This document shows positions 30,971-40,047 of a DNA stretch of 64,000 bases, piece after piece. Origin of the DNA: Salinibacter grassmerensis. Lineage in GTDB: Bacteria > Bacteroidota > Rhodothermia > Rhodothermales > Salinibacteraceae. Position 1 is the stretch's first letter. Each line of letters opens with the position of its first letter. The position numbers and the translations under genes are program-made. The notes beneath the pieces were generated by a model, which was given only the letters and a program-made list of their open reading frames with translations, had not been told where the DNA came from and did no database searches. The stretch covers positions 408,818 to 472,817 of the forward strand of contig NZ_CAMTTF010000001.1 of assembly GCF_947077765.1 (NCBI RefSeq). Direction: 5' to 3'.

Positions 30971-32164
30971 TTAGATGACGTCGTGCTTGCGCCCCACCTC
31001 CGTAAATGCGTCGATGGCGCGGTCGAGCTGCTCCTTCGAGTGCGCAGCGGACATCTGCACGCGGATGCGCGCCTCGCCCTCCGGCACGACCGGGTAGCTG
31101 AAGCTGATGACGTAGATGCCGCGGTCGAGCAGCTCGTCGGCGATGGCGCCGCTCGTCTTCGCGTCGTAGAACATGATGGGCACGATCGGGTGCTCGCCCG
31201 GCTTGATCTCGAAGCCACGGTCTTCCATTTCGGACCGGAAGTAGCGGGCGTTCTCCCAGATTTGCTCCCGCCGCCCGCCGCTCTCCTGCAGCATCTCCAG
31301 CACCTTGAGGCTGGCGTTGGCGATCATCGGCGCGATGGCGTTCGAGAAGAGGTAGGGGCGGGACTCCTGCCGCAGCAGGTCGATAATCTCCTTCCGGCCC
31401 GTGGTGAAGCCGCCAGTGGCGCCGCCGAGCGCCTTGCCGAGCGTAGAGGTGATGATGTCCACCTCATCGAGCACGCCCTTCGCCTCGCTGGCGCCGCGGC
31501 CCTCCTCCCCCATGAACCCCGTGGCGTGGCACTCGTCGACCATCACGAGCGCGTCGTACTCGTCGGCCAGGCGGCACATCTCGTCGAGCTTGGCCACGTC
31601 CCCGTCCATCGAGAACACGCCGTCGGTGGCAATCATGCGGGTCTCCGCGTCCTGGGCCGCCTGTAGCTTTGCCTCCAGGTCGTCCATGTCGCTGTGGTCA
31701 AAGACATGCAGGTCGGCCTTGCAGAGCCGGATGCCGTCGATGATAGAGGCGTGATTGAGGGCGTCACTGATGATGGCGTCGTCCTCGCCGAGGATGGTTT
31801 CGAAGAGGCCCGTGTTGGCGTCGAAGCACGAGTTGTACAGGATCGTATCGCCTGTGTCGTGGAAGTCGGACAGGGCATGCTCCAGGTCCTTGTGCACCGA
31901 CTGGGTGCCACAGATGAAGCGGACGCTGGCCACGCCAAAGCCGTACCGGTCGACGCCCCGCTTGGCGGCGTCCATGATCTCCGGGTGATTGGCGAGGCCG
32001 AGGTAGTTGTTCGCGCAGAAGTTGATGACGTGCTGACCGCCCTCAACTTCAATGTCGGCGTCCTGCTGGGAGGTGATGACGCGTTCTTCGTTGTAGGTGC
32101 CGGCGTTCTTGATCTCTTGCAGCGTCTGCCGAAAGTCGGCCGCAACGTCGTCGGTCATAGGCAT
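30971..32164 (-). CDS. kbl: Glycine C-acetyltransferase (2-amino-3-ketobutyrate CoA ligase)
   Basis: A 397-residue PLP enzyme of the alpha-oxoamine synthase family. It cleaves 2-amino-3-ketobutyrate with CoA to glycine and acetyl-CoA, the second step of threonine catabolism. Seen are [52 protein letters not shown] and the PLP lysine in [14 protein letters not shown]. Length and motifs match Kbl rather than the related BioF, and the upstream threonine dehydrogenase gene settles the assignment. Expressed from the same strand 138 bp after tdh and ended by a strong terminator. Cytosolic. Confidence 0.93.
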
Positions 32165-32302: not shown

Positions 32303-33274
32303 TCATGCGTCCACGCTTCCACTCTCCCTCGTCTCCGCCCGCAGGTGAGAGAGCATGTCGTCGGTCGTCGCCTCCAGGTCGTACTCCGGGGCCCAGCCCC
32401 AGTCGGTTCGGGCCGCCTCGTCGTCGACCGAGGACGGCCAGTTCGCGGCGATGCGCTGCCGCTCGTCCGGCTCGTAGCTGCAGCTGAACGTCGGCACGCG
32501 TGCCCGGATCGCCGCGGCCAGTTCCGCCGGAGAGAAGCTAAGGGCGCCTGCGTTGTAGCTGTCCCGCACCGACAGGGCGTCCGCGTCGGCCTCCATCAGG
32601 GCGAGGGTTCCCTGGATGGCGTCCGGCATGTACATCATGGGCAGCCGCGTGTCGGGCGCCAGAAAACAGCTGTAGTCCTCGCCCGCCGCGGCCTGGGTCA
32701 GCATGTCGACGGCGTAGTCGGTGGTGCCCCCGCCGGGGGCCGTCTTGTAGCTGAGGAGGCCCGGGTAGCGGAGACTCCGCACGTCGAGGTCGTAGCGCTG
32801 GTGGTAGTAGCGGCACAGCAGCTCTCCGCTCCGCTTGGTGACCCCGTACATGGTGGTGGGGTCGAGCACCGTGTTCTGGGGCGTACCTTTCCGCGGGGTA
32901 GTGGGGCCAAACACGGCGATCGAGCTAGGCCAGAACACCGTATCGACGGGGCGGCGGCGGGCAAGGTCCAGGACGTTTTTGAGCCCGTTCATGTTGACGT
33001 CCCAGGCGCGGTCGGGGTCCTGCTCGCCAGTGGCGGAGAGCAGGCTCGCCAGGTGGTAGATCGTGCCAATCTCGTAGCGGTCGAGGACATCGGCCAGGGC
33101 CTCACGGTCGCGCACGTCCATCACTTCAAAGGGCGCGGCGGCGGACCGGCCATTGGCCGTCGAGGGCGGGTTCAAGTCCAGGCCCACCACCTGCCCGGGC
33201 CCATGACGCCCGCGCAGTGCCTCGACGAGTTCACTACCGATCTGGCCGTTGGCGCCAGTGACCAGGATGCGCAT
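32303..33274 (-). CDS. tdh: L-threonine 3-dehydrogenase, epimerase (SDR) type
   Basis: A 323-residue extended short-chain dehydrogenase. It has the NAD-binding MRILVTGANGQIGSELVEAL, the LASLLSATGE loop, the catalytic Y-x-x-x-K in TTMYGVTKRSGELL, and the SSIAVFGP and RYPGLLSYKTAPGGGTTDYA segments characteristic of the SDR-type threonine dehydrogenase. It would oxidise threonine to 2-amino-3-ketobutyrate for Kbl downstream. Start codon is the ATG at 33274. It is divergent from the Lrp/AsnC regulator, a plausible controller of amino-acid catabolism. Confidence 0.9.
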   Translation of the reverse strand: MRILVTGANGQIGSELVEALRGRHGPGQVVGLDLNPPSTANGRSAAAPFEVMDVRDREALADVLDRYEIGTIYHLASLLSATGEQDPDRAWDVNMNGLKNVLDLARRRPVDTVFWPSSIAVFGPTTPRKGTPQNTVLDPTTMYGVTKRSGELLCRYYHQRYDLDVRSLRYPGLLSYKTAPGGGTTDYAVDMLTQAAAGEDYSCFLAPDTRLPMMYMPDAIQGTLALMEADADALSVRDSYNAGALSFSPAELAAAIRARVPTFSCSYEPDERQRIAANWPSSVDDEAARTDWGWAPEYDLEATTDDMLSHLRAETRESGSVDA

Positions 33275-33620
33275 GTACTCGGACGTGTGCGGTGAGAATT
33301 GAGTGAGCCCCCATGCGAGACGTGTCGTACTTGCCCCCGAACCGCGGGTTCAGTGTGGCCCTTTCCAGAAACGCTATTCGAGACAGGTTGGAAAACCCTG
33401 CAACGAGAAGACGTTGCGACGACGAAGATACTCTACGGGCCGTGCGCCTGTCCGTTCGGAACCGCTTTCACCCGACTGCCGCCGTTCTCGGGGATGGGCG
33501 AAGCGCTTCCAGCGAAAATTTTTACGGGTTCTGTAAAATTATTTGTCCGAGATGCTTGACAAACCAAAGAAAGTAGCGTAAGGTAGGGTCGTAACAAAAA
33601 GAGATAGAAGCAGCGAGGCC
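33275..33620. other. Divergent control region between tdh and lrp
   Basis: 346 bp between divergent genes. It has an A/T-rich stretch (33515-33545) that stands out in this GC-rich window and the predicted lrp promoter. Three overlapping open frames exist but none resembles a protein. One GAAGCGCTTCC palindrome at 33500-33510 resembles the LacI-type motif but is not positioned like the others. Confidence 0.55.
33556..33584 (+). promoter_or_regulatory. Predicted sigma70-like promoter of lrp
   Basis: A consensus -35 TTGACA (33556-33561) and TAAGGT (33579-33584) are separated by 17 bp, about 37 bp before the start codon. This is the clearest promoter in the window. Confidence 0.65.
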
Positions 33621-34118
33621 ATGCCGCACCGCATCGACGAAATCGACGCGAAGATTCTGGAGTTGCTCCAGCGCGATGGACGCATGCAGCGCAGCGACGT
33701 GGCCGAGGAGGTGGACCTCTCCATCTCGGCCGTCAGCGAGCGCATGCGGAAGCTCGAAGAGCGAGACGTCATCGAGGGGTACCGGGCCGTCGTCGATGCC
33801 AAGCGACTACGACTCGACATCACGGCGTTCATTCGCGTGTCCGTCGACGGATCGGAGCACTACCCCGATTTCGTCGATCAGGTGAAGGACATGGACCCGG
33901 TGTTGGAGCTGCACTCCATCACGGGCGACGGCTCGCACCTGATGAAGGTACGCACGACGGACACAACTGCCCTGGAAGGGTTCCTCTCCGACATCCAGGC
34001 CATTGCCGGCGTCAGCAGGACCACCACGAGCATCGTGCTGAGCACCTTCGAGGAAGAGCGCACCGTGCGCACCGAGCCGATGGAGCTGTACGACTACGAC
34101 GCGTCGTCCGGCGAGTAG
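33621..34118 (+). CDS. Lrp/AsnC-family transcriptional regulator
   Basis: A 165-residue Lrp/AsnC regulator. The N-terminal HTH is [20 protein letters not shown] through [20 protein letters not shown]. It is followed by the RAM ligand-binding domain ([26 protein letters not shown]) and an acidic tail. It lies directly upstream of glnA on the same strand and divergent from tdh-kbl, so it may link amino-acid status to glutamine synthesis and threonine breakdown. An lrp gene beside glnA is an arrangement I associate with haloarchaea. The ligand is unknown. Confidence 0.88.
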
Positions 34119-34210
34119 GCCCCTGGACGGCGGATTTCTTCGGGGCCCGACTGGTGCGGTTCGGGTCTCCCCCATTCCTCGTTTCCCCAAATCAATCCTC
34201 CCGATCATCA

Positions 34211-35551
34211 ATGCCGACTAAAACCGACGTCCTTGAGCAAATTGAGGCCAAAGGCGTGGACTTCCTGCGCCTTCAGTTCATCGACATTCTGGGGACGGTC
34301 AAAAACGTCTCCGTACCGGCCCACCAGGCCGAGAAGGCCTTCGAAGAGGGCATTTACTTTGACGGCTCCTCCATTGAGGGCTTCGTCCGCATCCAGGAGT
34401 CTGACATGCGCCTGGACCCGGACCCGGACACCTTCGCCATCCTCCCCTGGCGCAGCCAGCGCGGGGACGATACCGTCTCGGCCCGTCTCATCTGCAACAT
34501 CATCGACACCTCCACCGGCGAGCCCTTCGTGGGGGACCCGCGCTACGTGCTACAGCGCGCCATCGACCGGGCCGCCGACATGGGCTTCGATCTGAACGCG
34601 GGGCCCGAGCCCGAATTCTTCGTCTTCGAGAAAGACGAGAATGGACGGGCCACGACCGAGACCCACGACGCAGGCGGCTACTTCGACCTCGCGCCGAAGG
34701 ACCTCGCGCAGGAGATCCGAGCAGAGGTGATCTACACGCTCGAGGCGATGGGCTTTGAGGTGGAGGCGAGCCACCACGAGGTGGCCCAGGGCCAGCACGA
34801 GATCGACTTCAAGTACGACGACGCGCTGACCACGGCGGACAACATCGCCACCTTCCGGTCGGTCGTGCGGGCAATTGCGGAGCTGCACGACGTACACGCC
34901 ACGTTCATGCCGAAACCGATCGCCGGCATCAACGGCTCGGGCATGCACACGCACCTCTCGCTGTTCGAGGACGGGGAGAATGCCTTCCACGACGGCGACG
35001 ATGAATTCGACCTGAGCGACACCGCGTACGATTTCCTCGGCGGCATCCTCGAGCACGCACCGGCCCTGACGGCTATCTGCAACCCGACCGTCAACTCGTA
35101 CAAGCGGCTCGTGCCCGGGTACGAGGCGCCGATCTACGTGGCCTGGAGCGACGTCAACCGCTCGGCCCTCGTGCGGAAGCCGGCGGCCCGCATCCCGGCG
35201 GCCTCGCGGATTGAGCTCCGCTCGCCGGACCCGTCCAGCAACCCGTACCTCGCGCTTGCGACGATGCTGCACGCCGGGCTCGACGGCATCGAGAAGGGGC
35301 TCTCCGCGCCCGATCCAGTCCGCGAAAACATCTACGAGTTTACCGAGGCGGACCGCAAGGAGCGCGGCATCGAGACGCTCCCGAGCACGCTCGGCCAGGC
35401 GGTAACGGCCTTGCAGGCGGATGACGTGGTCCTCGACGCCCTGGGGCCGCACGTGAGCGAGAAGTTCACCCAGGCCAAGACGCAGGAGTACACCGAATTC
35501 CTCGCGTCGGTCTCGCAGTGGGAGCTCGACCGCTACCTGGAGACGTTCTAA
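34211..35551 (+). CDS. glnA: Glutamine synthetase type I
   Basis: A 446-residue glutamine synthetase that makes glutamine from glutamate, ammonia and ATP. Visible motifs are [17 protein letters not shown] (the DGSS region), [14 protein letters not shown] (metal ligands), [18 protein letters not shown] (ATP/ammonium loop) and [18 protein letters not shown], with [20 protein letters not shown] near the end. The ~445-residue length and the absence of the GSI-beta adenylylation-type tail indicate the GSI-alpha group. The sequence, including the C-terminal [10 protein letters not shown], strikingly resembles haloarchaeal glutamine synthetases as I recall them, so transfer is suspected. The ATG at 34211 is chosen over an upstream open extension. 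Lrp lies 92 bp upstream. Confidence 0.95.
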
Positions 35552-35597
35552 CGGTTCCAACGAAAAGACATCTGGAGCCCATAGCAAACGCCGAAGC

Positions 35598-35625
35598 GGC
35601 CGGTGTCCCGAGCGGGGCATCGGCC
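35598..35625 (+). terminator. Possible glnA terminator hairpin
   Basis: GGCCGGTGTCCC pairs with GGGGCATCGGCC (two G-T wobbles) around a 4-nt loop, 47 bp after the glnA stop. The following tract (GTTTCTACG) is only weakly T-rich. Confidence 0.45.
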
Positions 35626-35751
35626 GTTTCTACGGGGCGTAGAGGGACCCGCCAGACGCAGGAATGTCGTTCGGCGTGGGAGTGGTCCTTCGAGTGTCCT
35701 CTTCGGAAATGGAGGACATGTGCCCCGTCGTATGCGTCAGGCCCGGATGTT

Positions 35752-35808
35752 GCCACTTCAAAAAGACCAGCGTGCCACGCCCACGGTGCTCGTGGGGTTT
35801 GAAGTGGC
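35752..35808. repeat. 11-bp inverted repeat with nested hairpin
   Basis: GCCACTTCAAA (35752-35762) and TTTGAAGTGGC (35798-35808) are exact reverse complements. Between them CCCACG/CGTGGG (35780-35785, 35791-35796) forms an inner hairpin with a 5-nt loop. It lies about 220 bp upstream of purB. Confidence 0.6.
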
Positions 35809-36028
35809 GCTCAAATTCGTGCTGGGGCCCAGTCTTCAATTCCTCGCAGCCCGAAGAACCCCCGGCTCGCCGGCCAACCCGCGGCGCGGTAATTTTGAAG
35901 GCCCGCCAATTTTTCGCCTCCGCGCAGTGGCGTGCCCTATCGTCCTGGCATTCTCCGCCTCCGGACCGTTACCTTGCACGCAGAAGCAACCTCACACCCA
36001 TCCTGTACCGAGTCTTTCCCAGCCCCGA

Positions 36029-37327
36029 ATGATTGACCGCTATACCCGCCCGCCGATGGGCGACCTCTGGAGCGAAGAGCAGAAGTTTCAGTCCTGGCTC
36101 GACGTGGAGCTGGCCGCCTGTGCCGCGTGGAGCGAGATCGGCGCGATTCCGCCCGAGGACGTGGAGACCCTGTACGACGAGGCCGACTTCGACGTCGATC
36201 GCATCCACGAGATTGAGAAGGAGACGAAGCACGACGTGGTGGCGTTCACGCGGGCGGTGAGCGAGACGCTGGGGGAGGAGAAGAAGTGGATCCACTACGG
36301 CCTCACCTCGACCGACGTGGTGGACACCGCCTACATGGTGCGGATCAAGAAGGCAAACAGCCTCATCCGCACCCAGCTCGACGGGATGATCGAGACGCTG
36401 GCGGACAAGGCGCGGGAGCACAAGCACACCCTCACGATGGGGCGCACGCACGGGGTGCACGCCGAGCCCACGACGTTCGGCCTCAAGATGGCCCGCTACT
36501 ACGACGAGATGACCCGCCAGAAGGAGCGCTTCGAGCGGGCCGCCGAAGAGATGCGGATGGGCAAGCTCTCTGGGGCCGTGGGCACGTTCGCCCACATCCC
36601 GCCCGAGGTGGAGCGCTTCACGTGCGAGCGCCTTGGCCTCAAGCCGGCGCCCATCTCCACGCAGGTTCTCTCGCGCGACCGCCACGCGAACTACCTGAGC
36701 GTGATCGCGGGCATCGGGGCCACGCTCGAAAAGATGGCCGTGGAGGTGCGGCACCTCCAGCGCAGCGAGGTGCGGGAGGCGGAAGAGGCGTTCAGTGCCG
36801 GCCAGAAGGGCTCCTCCGCCATGCCCCACAAGCGCAACCCGGTCGGCTCCGAAAACATCACCGGCTGCGCGCGGCTCCTGCGCGGCTACATGAACAGCGA
36901 GTTCGACAACGTGGCGCTCTGGCACGAGCGCGACATCAGCCACTCCTCGGTCGAGCGCATCGTGCTGCCGGACGCGACGACGCTGCTGCACTACGCCCTC
37001 CGCCGCTTCCGCGGCATCATCGACGACCTGGTGGTCTACGAGGAGACCATGCGCGAGAACATGGAGGAGACCTACGGCCTCTACAACAGCCAGCGCCTCA
37101 TGCTGAAGCTAATCGACACAGGGCTCAGCCGGGAGGAGGCGTACGACCGGGTCCAGCCCCTCGCCATGACCGCGTGGGAGGAGGAGCGCCCGTTCCAGGA
37201 GGTCGTGGCGGCGTCCGACGACATCACGGAGGTGCTGTCCGAGGACGAGATTGAGGAGGCGTTCGACCCGACCTACCACGTCCGCAACGTGGACCGCATC
37301 TTCCGACGGGTGGGGCTGGAAGAGTGA
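36029..37327 (+). CDS. purB: Adenylosuccinate lyase
   Basis: A 432-residue fumarase/aspartase-superfamily lyase of purine synthesis, cleaving SAICAR and adenylosuccinate with release of fumarate. Signatures are MIDRYTRPPMGDLWSEEQKF, HYGLTSTDVVDTAY, MGRTHGVHAEPTTFG (catalytic His region) and the flexible loop AGQKGSSAMPHKRNPVGSEN containing the catalytic Ser. The ATG at 36029 is the conserved family start; an open extension upstream is rejected. The sequence layout matches the Bacillus/Thermotoga-type PurB. Confidence 0.95.
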   Translation: MIDRYTRPPMGDLWSEEQKFQSWLDVELAACAAWSEIGAIPPEDVETLYDEADFDVDRIHEIEKETKHDVVAFTRAVSETLGEEKKWIHYGLTSTDVVDTAYMVRIKKANSLIRTQLDGMIETLADKAREHKHTLTMGRTHGVHAEPTTFGLKMARYYDEMTRQKERFERAAEEMRMGKLSGAVGTFAHIPPEVERFTCERLGLKPAPISTQVLSRDRHANYLSVIAGIGATLEKMAVEVRHLQRSEVREAEEAFSAGQKGSSAMPHKRNPVGSENITGCARLLRGYMNSEFDNVALWHERDISHSSVERIVLPDATTLLHYALRRFRGIIDDLVVYEETMRENMEETYGLYNSQRLMLKLIDTGLSREEAYDRVQPLAMTAWEEERPFQEVVAASDDITEVLSEDEIEEAFDPTYHVRNVDRIFRRVGLEE

Positions 37328-38187: not shown

Positions 38188-40047
38188 ATGCGCCGTACAG
38201 ACGACCGCTACGCCCCCATTGAAAGCTACGCCGTCATTGGCGACTGTGCGAGTGCCGCCCTTGTGGGCGCGGATGGCGCAATCGACTGGCTCTGCTGGCC
38301 GCGGTTCGACAGCCCGTCCGTCTTCGCCGCCCTGCTGCACGCGGAGCGTGGGGGGCGATTTCAGGTGCGGCCGAAGAAGGAGTTTTCGGTGGAACGGCGG
38401 TACATGGGCGATACGAACGTACTGGAAACGACCTTCACGACGGAGACGGGCGTGCTTCGCCTGACGGACCTGATGCCGGTGGGGCCTCCCGAGGCGTACC
38501 GGCGCGAGCTGTGGCCGACCCGCGAGATTCTTCGCCGGGTGGAGTGTGTGGAGGGAACGGTGACGGCCCGTGTTGTCTGCGAGCCGCGCCTCGACTACGC
38601 GCAGGCCGACCCTGTCTTTGACGACCGGGGCGACCACGGGTTTTTCTGCAACCACGACGGGGCCGTGCTCGTCGTGCGGAGCGAGGTGCCCCTCCGCCGG
38701 TCGACCGACCGGCACGTCCTTCGGGGCGAACAGACCCTTCAGGCGGGCGACCGCCGGTTCCTGTCCCTCGCGTACGACGAGGATGCCCCCGCCACGCTGC
38801 CGCTTCTGGGAGACCACGCCGAGCGAAAGCTGGCCCGGACGATCAACTACTGGCGTGACTGGGCGGGGCGGTGCGAGTACGACGGGCCCTACCGCGACGC
38901 CGTGGTGCGGAGCGCCCTCACCCTCAAGCTCATGACCTTCGCCCCGTCGGGCGCCATCGTGGCGGCCCCCACCACCTCCCTCCCCGAAGCGATTGGGGGC
39001 GAGCGGAACTGGGACTACCGCTACTGCTGGCTCCGCGATGCGGCCCTGACGCTGCGGGCCCTCTACGAACTGGGCTATGAAGATGAGGGGCGGGCCTTTT
39101 TCTCGTGGCTCCTGCATACCACCCGACCGACCGCGCCGAAGTTGCAGGTCATGTACGACGTGTACGGCAACACCAGCTTAACGGAGCAGACGCTGTCACA
39201 CCTGGAGGGCTATCGGCAGTCGCCGCCGGTGCGGGTGGGCAATGGCGCGCACGATCAGCTCCAGCTCGACACGTACGGGGAGCTCATCAGCGCGGCCTAC
39301 GAGTTCGTGCAGCGGGAGCACGAGCTGGACGCCTGGCACCGGCGCCTCCTCGTCAGCCTGGGCAACGAGGTGTGCGAGCGTTGGACGGAGCCGGACGAGG
39401 GCATTTGGGAGGTGCGTTCCGGGCGCCACCACCATACGTTTTCGAAAGCAATGTGCTGGGTCGCCCTGGAGCGCCTTCTGGCGCTGCACGAGGAGGGGTA
39501 CGTCACCGTTCCGGTCGACCGCTACCGGACGGAGGCCGCCAACATTCGCGCCGCGGTGGAGGAACAGGGCTACAACGAGGAGAGGGAGAGCTACGTTGCC
39601 ACGTTTGGCGGGGATCGGCTGGACGCAAGCCTGCTTCTGCTTCCCACCTACGGGTACGAGGAGGCGACGAGCCCGCGCATGAAATCCACCTTTGCCCGCA
39701 TCCATGAGGAGCTGGCCCAGAACGGGCTCCTCCACCGGTACCCGCCCGACACCGACGATGGATTTACGTCCGAGGAAGGGGCCTTCGGCCTCTGCAGCTT
39801 CTGGGACGAAGAGATGTTTGCCCGGCTGGGGCGGCTCGACGAGGCGCGTGCGAAGCTCGGCGAGACGATCGGGTACGCGAACGACCTTGGGCTCTTCGCC
39901 GAAGAGATCGATCCGGAGACCGGGACGTTCCTGGGGAATTTTCCACAGGCGTTTACGCACGTCGGGCTCATCAACGCCGCCATCACCCTCACGAAGGCCG
40001 AGGAGGAGGCCCCCACTGCCCTGTACGAACATCCCGACCCACAATGA
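38188..40047 (+). CDS. GH15-family glucoamylase/trehalase-like enzyme
   Basis: A 619-residue protein of the GH15 family with a trehalase-like N-terminal beta domain (YAPIESYAVIGDCASAALVG, AIDWLCWPRFDSPSVFAALL). The (alpha/alpha)6 catalytic domain includes ERNWDYRYCWLRDAALTLRA, EPDEGIWEVRSGRHHHTFSK (probable general acid Glu) and LGNFPQAFTHVGLINAAI. No signal peptide is visible, so a cytosolic role on trehalose, glycogen or maltodextrin is likely. In related bacteria such proteins can be trehalases or glucoamylases, and sequence alone does not decide. Trehalose is relevant to osmotic stress. The stop overlaps the next gene's start (ATGA), so the two are coupled. Confidence 0.88.
   Translation: MRRTDDRYAPIESYAVIGDCASAALVGADGAIDWLCWPRFDSPSVFAALLHAERGGRFQVRPKKEFSVERRYMGDTNVLETTFTTETGVLRLTDLMPVGPPEAYRRELWPTREILRRVECVEGTVTARVVCEPRLDYAQADPVFDDRGDHGFFCNHDGAVLVVRSEVPLRRSTDRHVLRGEQTLQAGDRRFLSLAYDEDAPATLPLLGDHAERKLARTINYWRDWAGRCEYDGPYRDAVVRSALTLKLMTFAPSGAIVAAPTTSLPEAIGGERNWDYRYCWLRDAALTLRALYELGYEDEGRAFFSWLLHTTRPTAPKLQVMYDVYGNTSLTEQTLSHLEGYRQSPPVRVGNGAHDQLQLDTYGELISAAYEFVQREHELDAWHRRLLVSLGNEVCERWTEPDEGIWEVRSGRHHHTFSKAMCWVALERLLALHEEGYVTVPVDRYRTEAANIRAAVEEQGYNEERESYVATFGGDRLDASLLLLPTYGYEEATSPRMKSTFARIHEELAQNGLLHRYPPDTDDGFTSEEGAFGLCSFWDEEMFARLGRLDEARAKLGETIGYANDLGLFAEEIDPETGTFLGNFPQAFTHVGLINAAITLTKAEEEAPTALYEHPDPQ

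Follow-up and report, generated by a model that had tools for sequence, protein, structure and literature searches.

Genes and features of the locus

The DNA analysed in the current study (the window) is a 64,000-nucleotide stretch from Salinibacter grassmerensis, of the family Salinibacteraceae in the order Rhodothermales. It carries a gene for an Lrp/AsnC-family regulator (lrp) followed by a gene for a type I glutamine synthetase (glnA), both at the positions given in the initial annotation. The place behind lrp is referred to here as the slot. The following features were assigned:

30971-32164, minus strand: kbl (glycine C-acetyltransferase), model NF005394; left-hand flank of the slot, found at the same place in genome G019
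32303-33274, minus strand: NAD-dependent epimerase/dehydratase, PF01370; left-hand flank, found at the same place in G019
33530-33545, plus strand: A/T-rich element upstream of lrp, consensus TTTnCAAAATTATTTG; candidate operator or UP element
33621-34118, plus strand: lrp, 165 aa, resident Lrp/AsnC-family regulator; PF13404, PF13412 and PF01037 above their cut-offs
34119-34210, plus strand: gap of 92 bp between the co-directional lrp and glnA
34211-35551, plus strand: glnA, 446 aa, type I glutamine synthetase of haloarchaeal origin (TIGR00653 and trees)
36029-37327, plus strand: purB, TIGR00928; right-hand flank of the slot

The three domain matches give the Lrp protein an AsnC-type helix-turn-helix and a ligand-binding domain. 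GlnA passed the cut-off of the type I glutamine synthetase model TIGR00653 (557 bits, cut-off 429) and scored 456 bits with PF00120. Its reading frame opens with a GTG at 34154, and matches to homologues begin at the ATG at 34211, which was taken as the start. All three protein stretches quoted in the initial annotation, including the RYLETF end, were present in the translation. In the genome to which the window belongs (99.72% complete), GlnA was the single protein matching PF00120, and PF12437, a domain of type III glutamine synthetase (GSIII), had no match.

Elsewhere in the window, positions 38188-40047 encode a GH15 trehalase-like protein, which scored below the cut-offs for archaeal TreH1 and TreH2 (390 and 324 bits versus 820 and 1000). 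The genome also codes for two PII proteins.

The slot behind lrp in the Rhodothermales

Among the 106 genomes of the order that carry this lrp, 85 had, on the same strand, a glutamine synthetase domain whose start lay no more than 1.7 kb downstream of it, and 14 of the 15 families were represented. The occupant was GSIII in 58 genomes, a haloarchaeal-type enzyme in 22, another GSI in two genomes of a sister genus (G023 and G025) and a GSII in three, all of family f9. Types were assigned by score and frame length, with six of them checked by domain models; G011, where the match is split and 91–92% identical to the GlnA of the window, was counted as haloarchaeal-type, and G024, which has a 52-aa glutamine synthetase fragment (81% identical) and no lrp match, was left out. 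The other 21 genomes comprised 16 of family f15, three with the synthetase on another contig and two in which none was found.

The enzymes of G028 and G019 contain the GSIII domains PF12437 and PF18318 in proteins of 731 and 743 aa, that of G019 matching the GSIII_N domain at 249 bits, and the slot enzymes of G023 and G025 meet TIGR00653. With NF041605, which has a cut-off of 500 bits, the GSII candidates of G034 and G046 reached no more than 390 and 400. In the PDB, the candidate of G034 matched 4bax best, a glutamine synthetase of 344 residues; these two candidates were checked, and the third f9 gene is cut by a contig end. The initial annotation had raised the question of a different glutamine synthetase in relatives, and most other Rhodothermales families indeed keep GSIII. 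Among the 27 genomes of the window's family, PF12437 was detected in G019 alone, and the 14 with a completeness of 90% or more gave no match to it.

G019 offers the best view of the state before the change. It belongs to the same family and carries kbl and the epimerase gene on the minus strand, followed by lrp and GSIII on the plus strand; the window has the same two minus-strand genes followed by lrp, glnA and purB on the plus strand. G019 is 67% complete and in 140 contigs. The order lrp-GSIII-purB was found in G028, G033, G037 and G054, i.e. in four of the 13 lrp-GSIII loci fetched from other families, and lrp-GSI-purB in G025; purB came next in five of the ten haloarchaeal-type relatives fetched. 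Judged from this gene order in relatives, kbl, the epimerase gene and purB are native flanks. A search for a GSIII relic gave no match at E values up to 10 in positions 33275-34210 or 35549-36028.

Two further loci were observed. None of the 16 lrp-bearing genomes of f15 had an adjacent synthetase gene, and in one of them (G040, locus L155, 7060-9591) lrp is followed by purB at a distance of 0.8 kb and the GSIII gene sits on a different contig, which looks like a vacated slot. In family f16, just outside the order, yet another GSI stands behind lrp (loci L287 and L288; genomes G396 and G345). It is 86–87% identical to an extra GSI located elsewhere in the two f3 genomes compared, a likeness pointing to another transfer.

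Origin of the Lrp regulator

The same Lrp was detected in 106 of the 114 genomes searched from the order (E 1e-35 or better) and, at E 1e-24 or better, in 217 of a phylum-wide sample of 296. Its identity across the other families of the order was 47–64%, and in 32 of 33 relatives from those families the best match was 53–64% identical. The Lrps that stand beside glnA in haloarchaea were 26–34% identical (15 of 17 named loci, where one matched), and the haloarchaeal Lrp model NF041396 gave 74 bits against a cut-off of 190.

In a tree of 65 Lrps, the 17 haloarchaeal sequences, which include three pairs of identical copies, were split from all 48 bacterial ones at 98/92; a further five of an intended 70 (four of 21 haloarchaeal, one of six from the same class) gave no usable match. 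Members of the family of the window sat among Rhodothermales and other Lrps of the same class and did not form one clade, and branch support in this bacterial part was mostly weak. These sequence comparisons indicate that the regulator is native, an ordinary Lrp of the Rhodothermales and Bacteroidota.

Second lrp copies, 71–75% identical and away from glnA, were seen in two genomes (G007:C303:16129-16599 and G008:C3:181999-182472). One in-frame TGA interrupts the copy in G007, and another occurs in the lrp beside glnA in G021 (G021:C13:31683-32174).

Origin of the glutamine synthetase

In a scan of GTDB contigs, 17 of the best 80 loci were named haloarchaeal loci with 70–79% identity to GlnA, 62 were other non-kin loci with 54–60% identity, and the remaining one was a metagenome-assembled genome (MAG) of the window's own kin. 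Three archaea from the phylum of Haloferax (G255, G246 and G264) reached 65–67%, and no other member of that phylum exceeded 59%. Matches above 80% identity were restricted to one family among the 60 bacterial relatives searched, and vertical inheritance of the gene was rejected on this ground.

A quick GlnA tree of 94 sequences placed all 15 members of the family in one clade (SH-aLRT 100) and grouped them with 50 haloarchaeal sequences (SH-aLRT 97), leaving G255, G246 and G264 outside. Both groupings were recovered at 100/99 in a more careful tree of 51 sequences, ten of them from the family. In the free trees one haloarchaeon, G143, branched below the bacterial clade. Holding the haloarchaea monophyletic was rejected with one gene copy of G143 (AU p 0.011) and not rejected with both copies (AU p 0.209). 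The bacterial clade may lie inside the haloarchaea or be their sister, and either way the trees place the donor at or near the haloarchaeal base. Taken together, the identities and the trees indicate that glnA is of haloarchaeal origin.

DNA-level similarity of positions 33275-36028 to haloarchaea coincided with the glnA frame for all 67 loci compared, and 67 of 69 nucleotide matches fell inside 34208-35561. These matches need not mark the boundaries of what was transferred, since similarity in non-coding DNA would be lost anyway.

Residues of the GlnA protein

GlnA was putatively assigned to the GSI-alpha subtype from its place among archaeal and Bacillota GlnA alone. The arginine of glutamine feedback, at the position of Arg62 of BsGS, is kept as R60 in all 21 family members. 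PMC10799026 names five residues of the Methanothermococcus enzyme (MtGS) that contact 2-oxoglutarate. Four of these appear to be kept in the GlnA of the window, as mapped through one archaeal sequence. The exception is the position of Arg175 (residue 171), where all 21 family members have Ala and 64 of 67 haloarchaea have Arg or Lys, and an altered response to 2-oxoglutarate is therefore possible, if this mapping from the residues named there is right. The position of Arg88 may have been misplaced, as it held Arg in 41 of 62 sequences of a Bacillota set (which includes one MAG labelled Thermoguttaceae), though PMC10799026 describes this arginine as absent in bacterial homologs.

Upstream region and control by Lrp

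Regulators of the Lrp family sense small metabolites, and genes next to their own are frequent targets; Lrp itself is known as a feast/famine regulator. A glutamine synthetase gene stands behind lrp in 14 of the 15 families, whatever its type, which makes it likely that Lrp controls the adjacent synthetase gene in the window as well.

The A/T-rich element was found 90 to 93 bp upstream of lrp, with a score of at least 13, in ten of the 15 family sequences used for training. With either motif width, three of 17 held-out relatives passed at p<0.05. The element thus appears to be conserved among close relatives only, and is a candidate operator or UP element. An inverted repeat, TTTTAC-N7-GTAAAA (33520-33538), was also considered as an Lrp box and was rejected, being perfect in the window alone among the upstream regions compared. 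No sigma-70-type consensus promoter was found between 33280 and 36100, where 0.2 would be expected.

Probable displacement of the enzyme behind a resident regulator

The reading that best accounts for these results, and in which we have high confidence, is that a haloarchaeal glnA took the place of GSIII in situ, downstream of a regulator that was already resident, with Lrp likely still governing the synthetase gene. In the ancestral Rhodothermales locus, GSIII would have followed lrp, and in several lineages purB would have come after it. A glnA acquired from an early haloarchaeon would then have replaced GSIII in the family of the window, leaving lrp and the flanking genes, all native, where they were. 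The DNA may have arrived by insertion beside the old gene followed by loss of the latter, or by refilling of an emptied slot. If, as is likely, Lrp still governs transcription of the gene behind it, presumably by binding upstream, the archaeal enzyme would have taken over glutamine synthesis under the old control, and a salt-adapted enzyme may have been the selective benefit. Native neighbours, the old occupant in the same slot of relatives and the lack of a second synthetase in the genome were all observed.

A wider proposal is that the slot acts as a regulatory socket, in which regulator and site are inherited vertically and the enzyme has been exchanged repeatedly across the three synthetase types (GSIII, GSII, haloarchaeal GSI and another GSI), with Lrp reading a metabolite and being indifferent to the enzyme that produces it. 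The case for this broader picture is evenly poised.

The number and order of the exchanges were examined on an RpoB tree of 45 genomes. For the 40 with a known slot state, it required a minimum of four changes of occupant; the five others were three of f15, G017 (no synthetase found) and G024 (fragment). The other-GSI state rests there on one genome, G023, and G044, G058 and G039 are absent from the tree, in which several deep branches are weakly supported. Placing the carriers of the haloarchaeal-type enzyme in a single RpoB clade was rejected (AU p 0.0012), because genus g9, which has this enzyme, branches below g8 (GSIII) and g6 (another GSI). In the GlnA tree g9 joined g3 inside the family (98/96), and the alternative to this was not rejected (p 0.159). 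The conflict between the two trees over g9 implies either a transfer within the family, or an early entry and two replacements. According to the latter, the family acquired the haloarchaeal glnA at its base, and two of its genera subsequently exchanged the gene (for GSIII in G019, and for the other GSI in G023 and G025); according to the former, the gene entered the core of the family and then passed into g9. The position of g9 on the RpoB tree speaks for early entry, and its union with g3 in the GlnA tree favours the later passage; early entry is considered less likely than not.

Foreign contigs in metagenome-derived genomes could mimic swapping of this kind, the more so as G019, G023 and G025 are drafts of 56–67% completeness. 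However, the arrangement of the window was also found in G003, G010 and G015, assemblies of two to three contigs, and the contig of G019 bears kbl, the epimerase gene and lrp as in the left flank of the family. Moreover, the other-GSI state occurs in two genomes and the GSII-like gene in three genomes of f9, and a binning or assembly artefact is accordingly improbable.

Transfer in the opposite direction, from Salinibacter-like bacteria to haloarchaea, would fit the branching of the family near the haloarchaeal base, but it is very improbable. The successive outgroups of the joint GlnA clade are archaeal (G255 and G246, then G264, then other Halobacteriota), and the reverse direction was rejected on these; moreover, the gene was detected at E 1e-100 or better in 115 of 116 genomes of the haloarchaeal class, and the confinement of the closest bacterial matches to a single family also speaks against this direction.

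The initial annotation had suggested that lrp and glnA may be a haloarchaeal cassette, in which regulator and target moved together. Gene transfer from haloarchaea to bacteria of salt crystallisers is known in general. The haloarchaeal likeness that had been noted for GlnA was borne out by the identities among the best 80 loci and by the joint clade. Haloarchaea also do have an lrp neighbour: in 59 of 67 haloarchaeal glnA loci, an lrp was located upstream within 700 bp. It was on the opposite strand in each of these 59; the flanks fetched for the remaining eight contained no lrp, and a co-directional lrp was found in none of the 67. In the window the genes are co-directional, and the pair is therefore not the haloarchaeal arrangement. 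A transferred cassette would have both proteins branching with haloarchaea, which held for GlnA and failed for Lrp, which lies outside the haloarchaeal Lrps sampled. A native Lrp and a haloarchaeal pair on opposite strands leave no moving cassette, and co-transfer was ruled out by the Lrp tree and the orientation. Transfer of the pair as a whole, despite the lrp beside glnA in haloarchaea (seen here and described in PMC8229911 and PMC2894021), is scarcely credible given a regulator that is much closer to those of other families of its order and falls in a separate clade and below the haloarchaeal model cut-off, and given the opposite orientation of the two genes in every haloarchaeal locus with an lrp in reach. 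Instead, the comparisons point to a regulator that stayed and an enzyme that was exchanged.

The displacement in situ favoured here corrects the cassette idea, of which the haloarchaeal half was right and the cassette half wrong. Its value as a case lies in a single slot to which old occupant, resident regulator and foreign enzyme can each be assigned. A testable question follows, namely whether foreign core enzymes succeed by entering an existing regulated position. GSIII, GSII and two kinds of GSI behind one Lrp also provide a natural series for asking whether a regulator controls a function or a particular gene.

Comparison with known systems

A literature search of titles and abstract openings found no description of the swap; the genome paper of Salinibacter ruber, which was outside that search, may list glnA among transferred genes.

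With the haloarchaeal lrp-glnA pair, as in Halobacterium salinarum and Haloferax mediterranei, the locus shares the adjacency of an Lrp-family gene and a type I glnA. The haloarchaeal genes face opposite ways, whereas those of the window are on the same strand, and the haloarchaeal Lrp is not a near relative of the one described here. According to PMC8229911, the two genes are oppositely directed in haloarchaea; two species have lrp downstream of glnA, and four others have it upstream. In all 59 loci of the current study it was upstream. For H. salinarum, PMC2894021 reports that Lrp overexpression induces glnA.

Compared with the haloarchaeal and archaeal GSI-alpha enzymes, the GlnA of the window has in common the feedback arginine and, going by the residues listed in PMC10799026, four of five 2-oxoglutarate contacts. 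It differs at the fifth of the residues listed there, where the haloarchaeal enzymes have Arg or Lys and the family has Ala.

The Rhodothermales lrp-GSIII pair has the same Lrp, gene order and strand as the window, and the flanks are partly shared. Its enzyme is GSIII (731 and 743 aa in the two checked), unlike the type I enzyme of 446 aa in the window.

The event is of a known kind, gene displacement in situ, which was reportedly described together with mosaic operons by Omelchenko and co-workers in 2003. The likeness lies in a single foreign gene amid native neighbours. The present case differs in that the replacing enzyme is a glutamine synthetase of another type and not an ortholog, and in that at least four changes of enzyme occurred at one position in one order. 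What is unusual is that GSIII, GSII and no fewer than two kinds of GSI have all occupied a single Lrp-headed slot.
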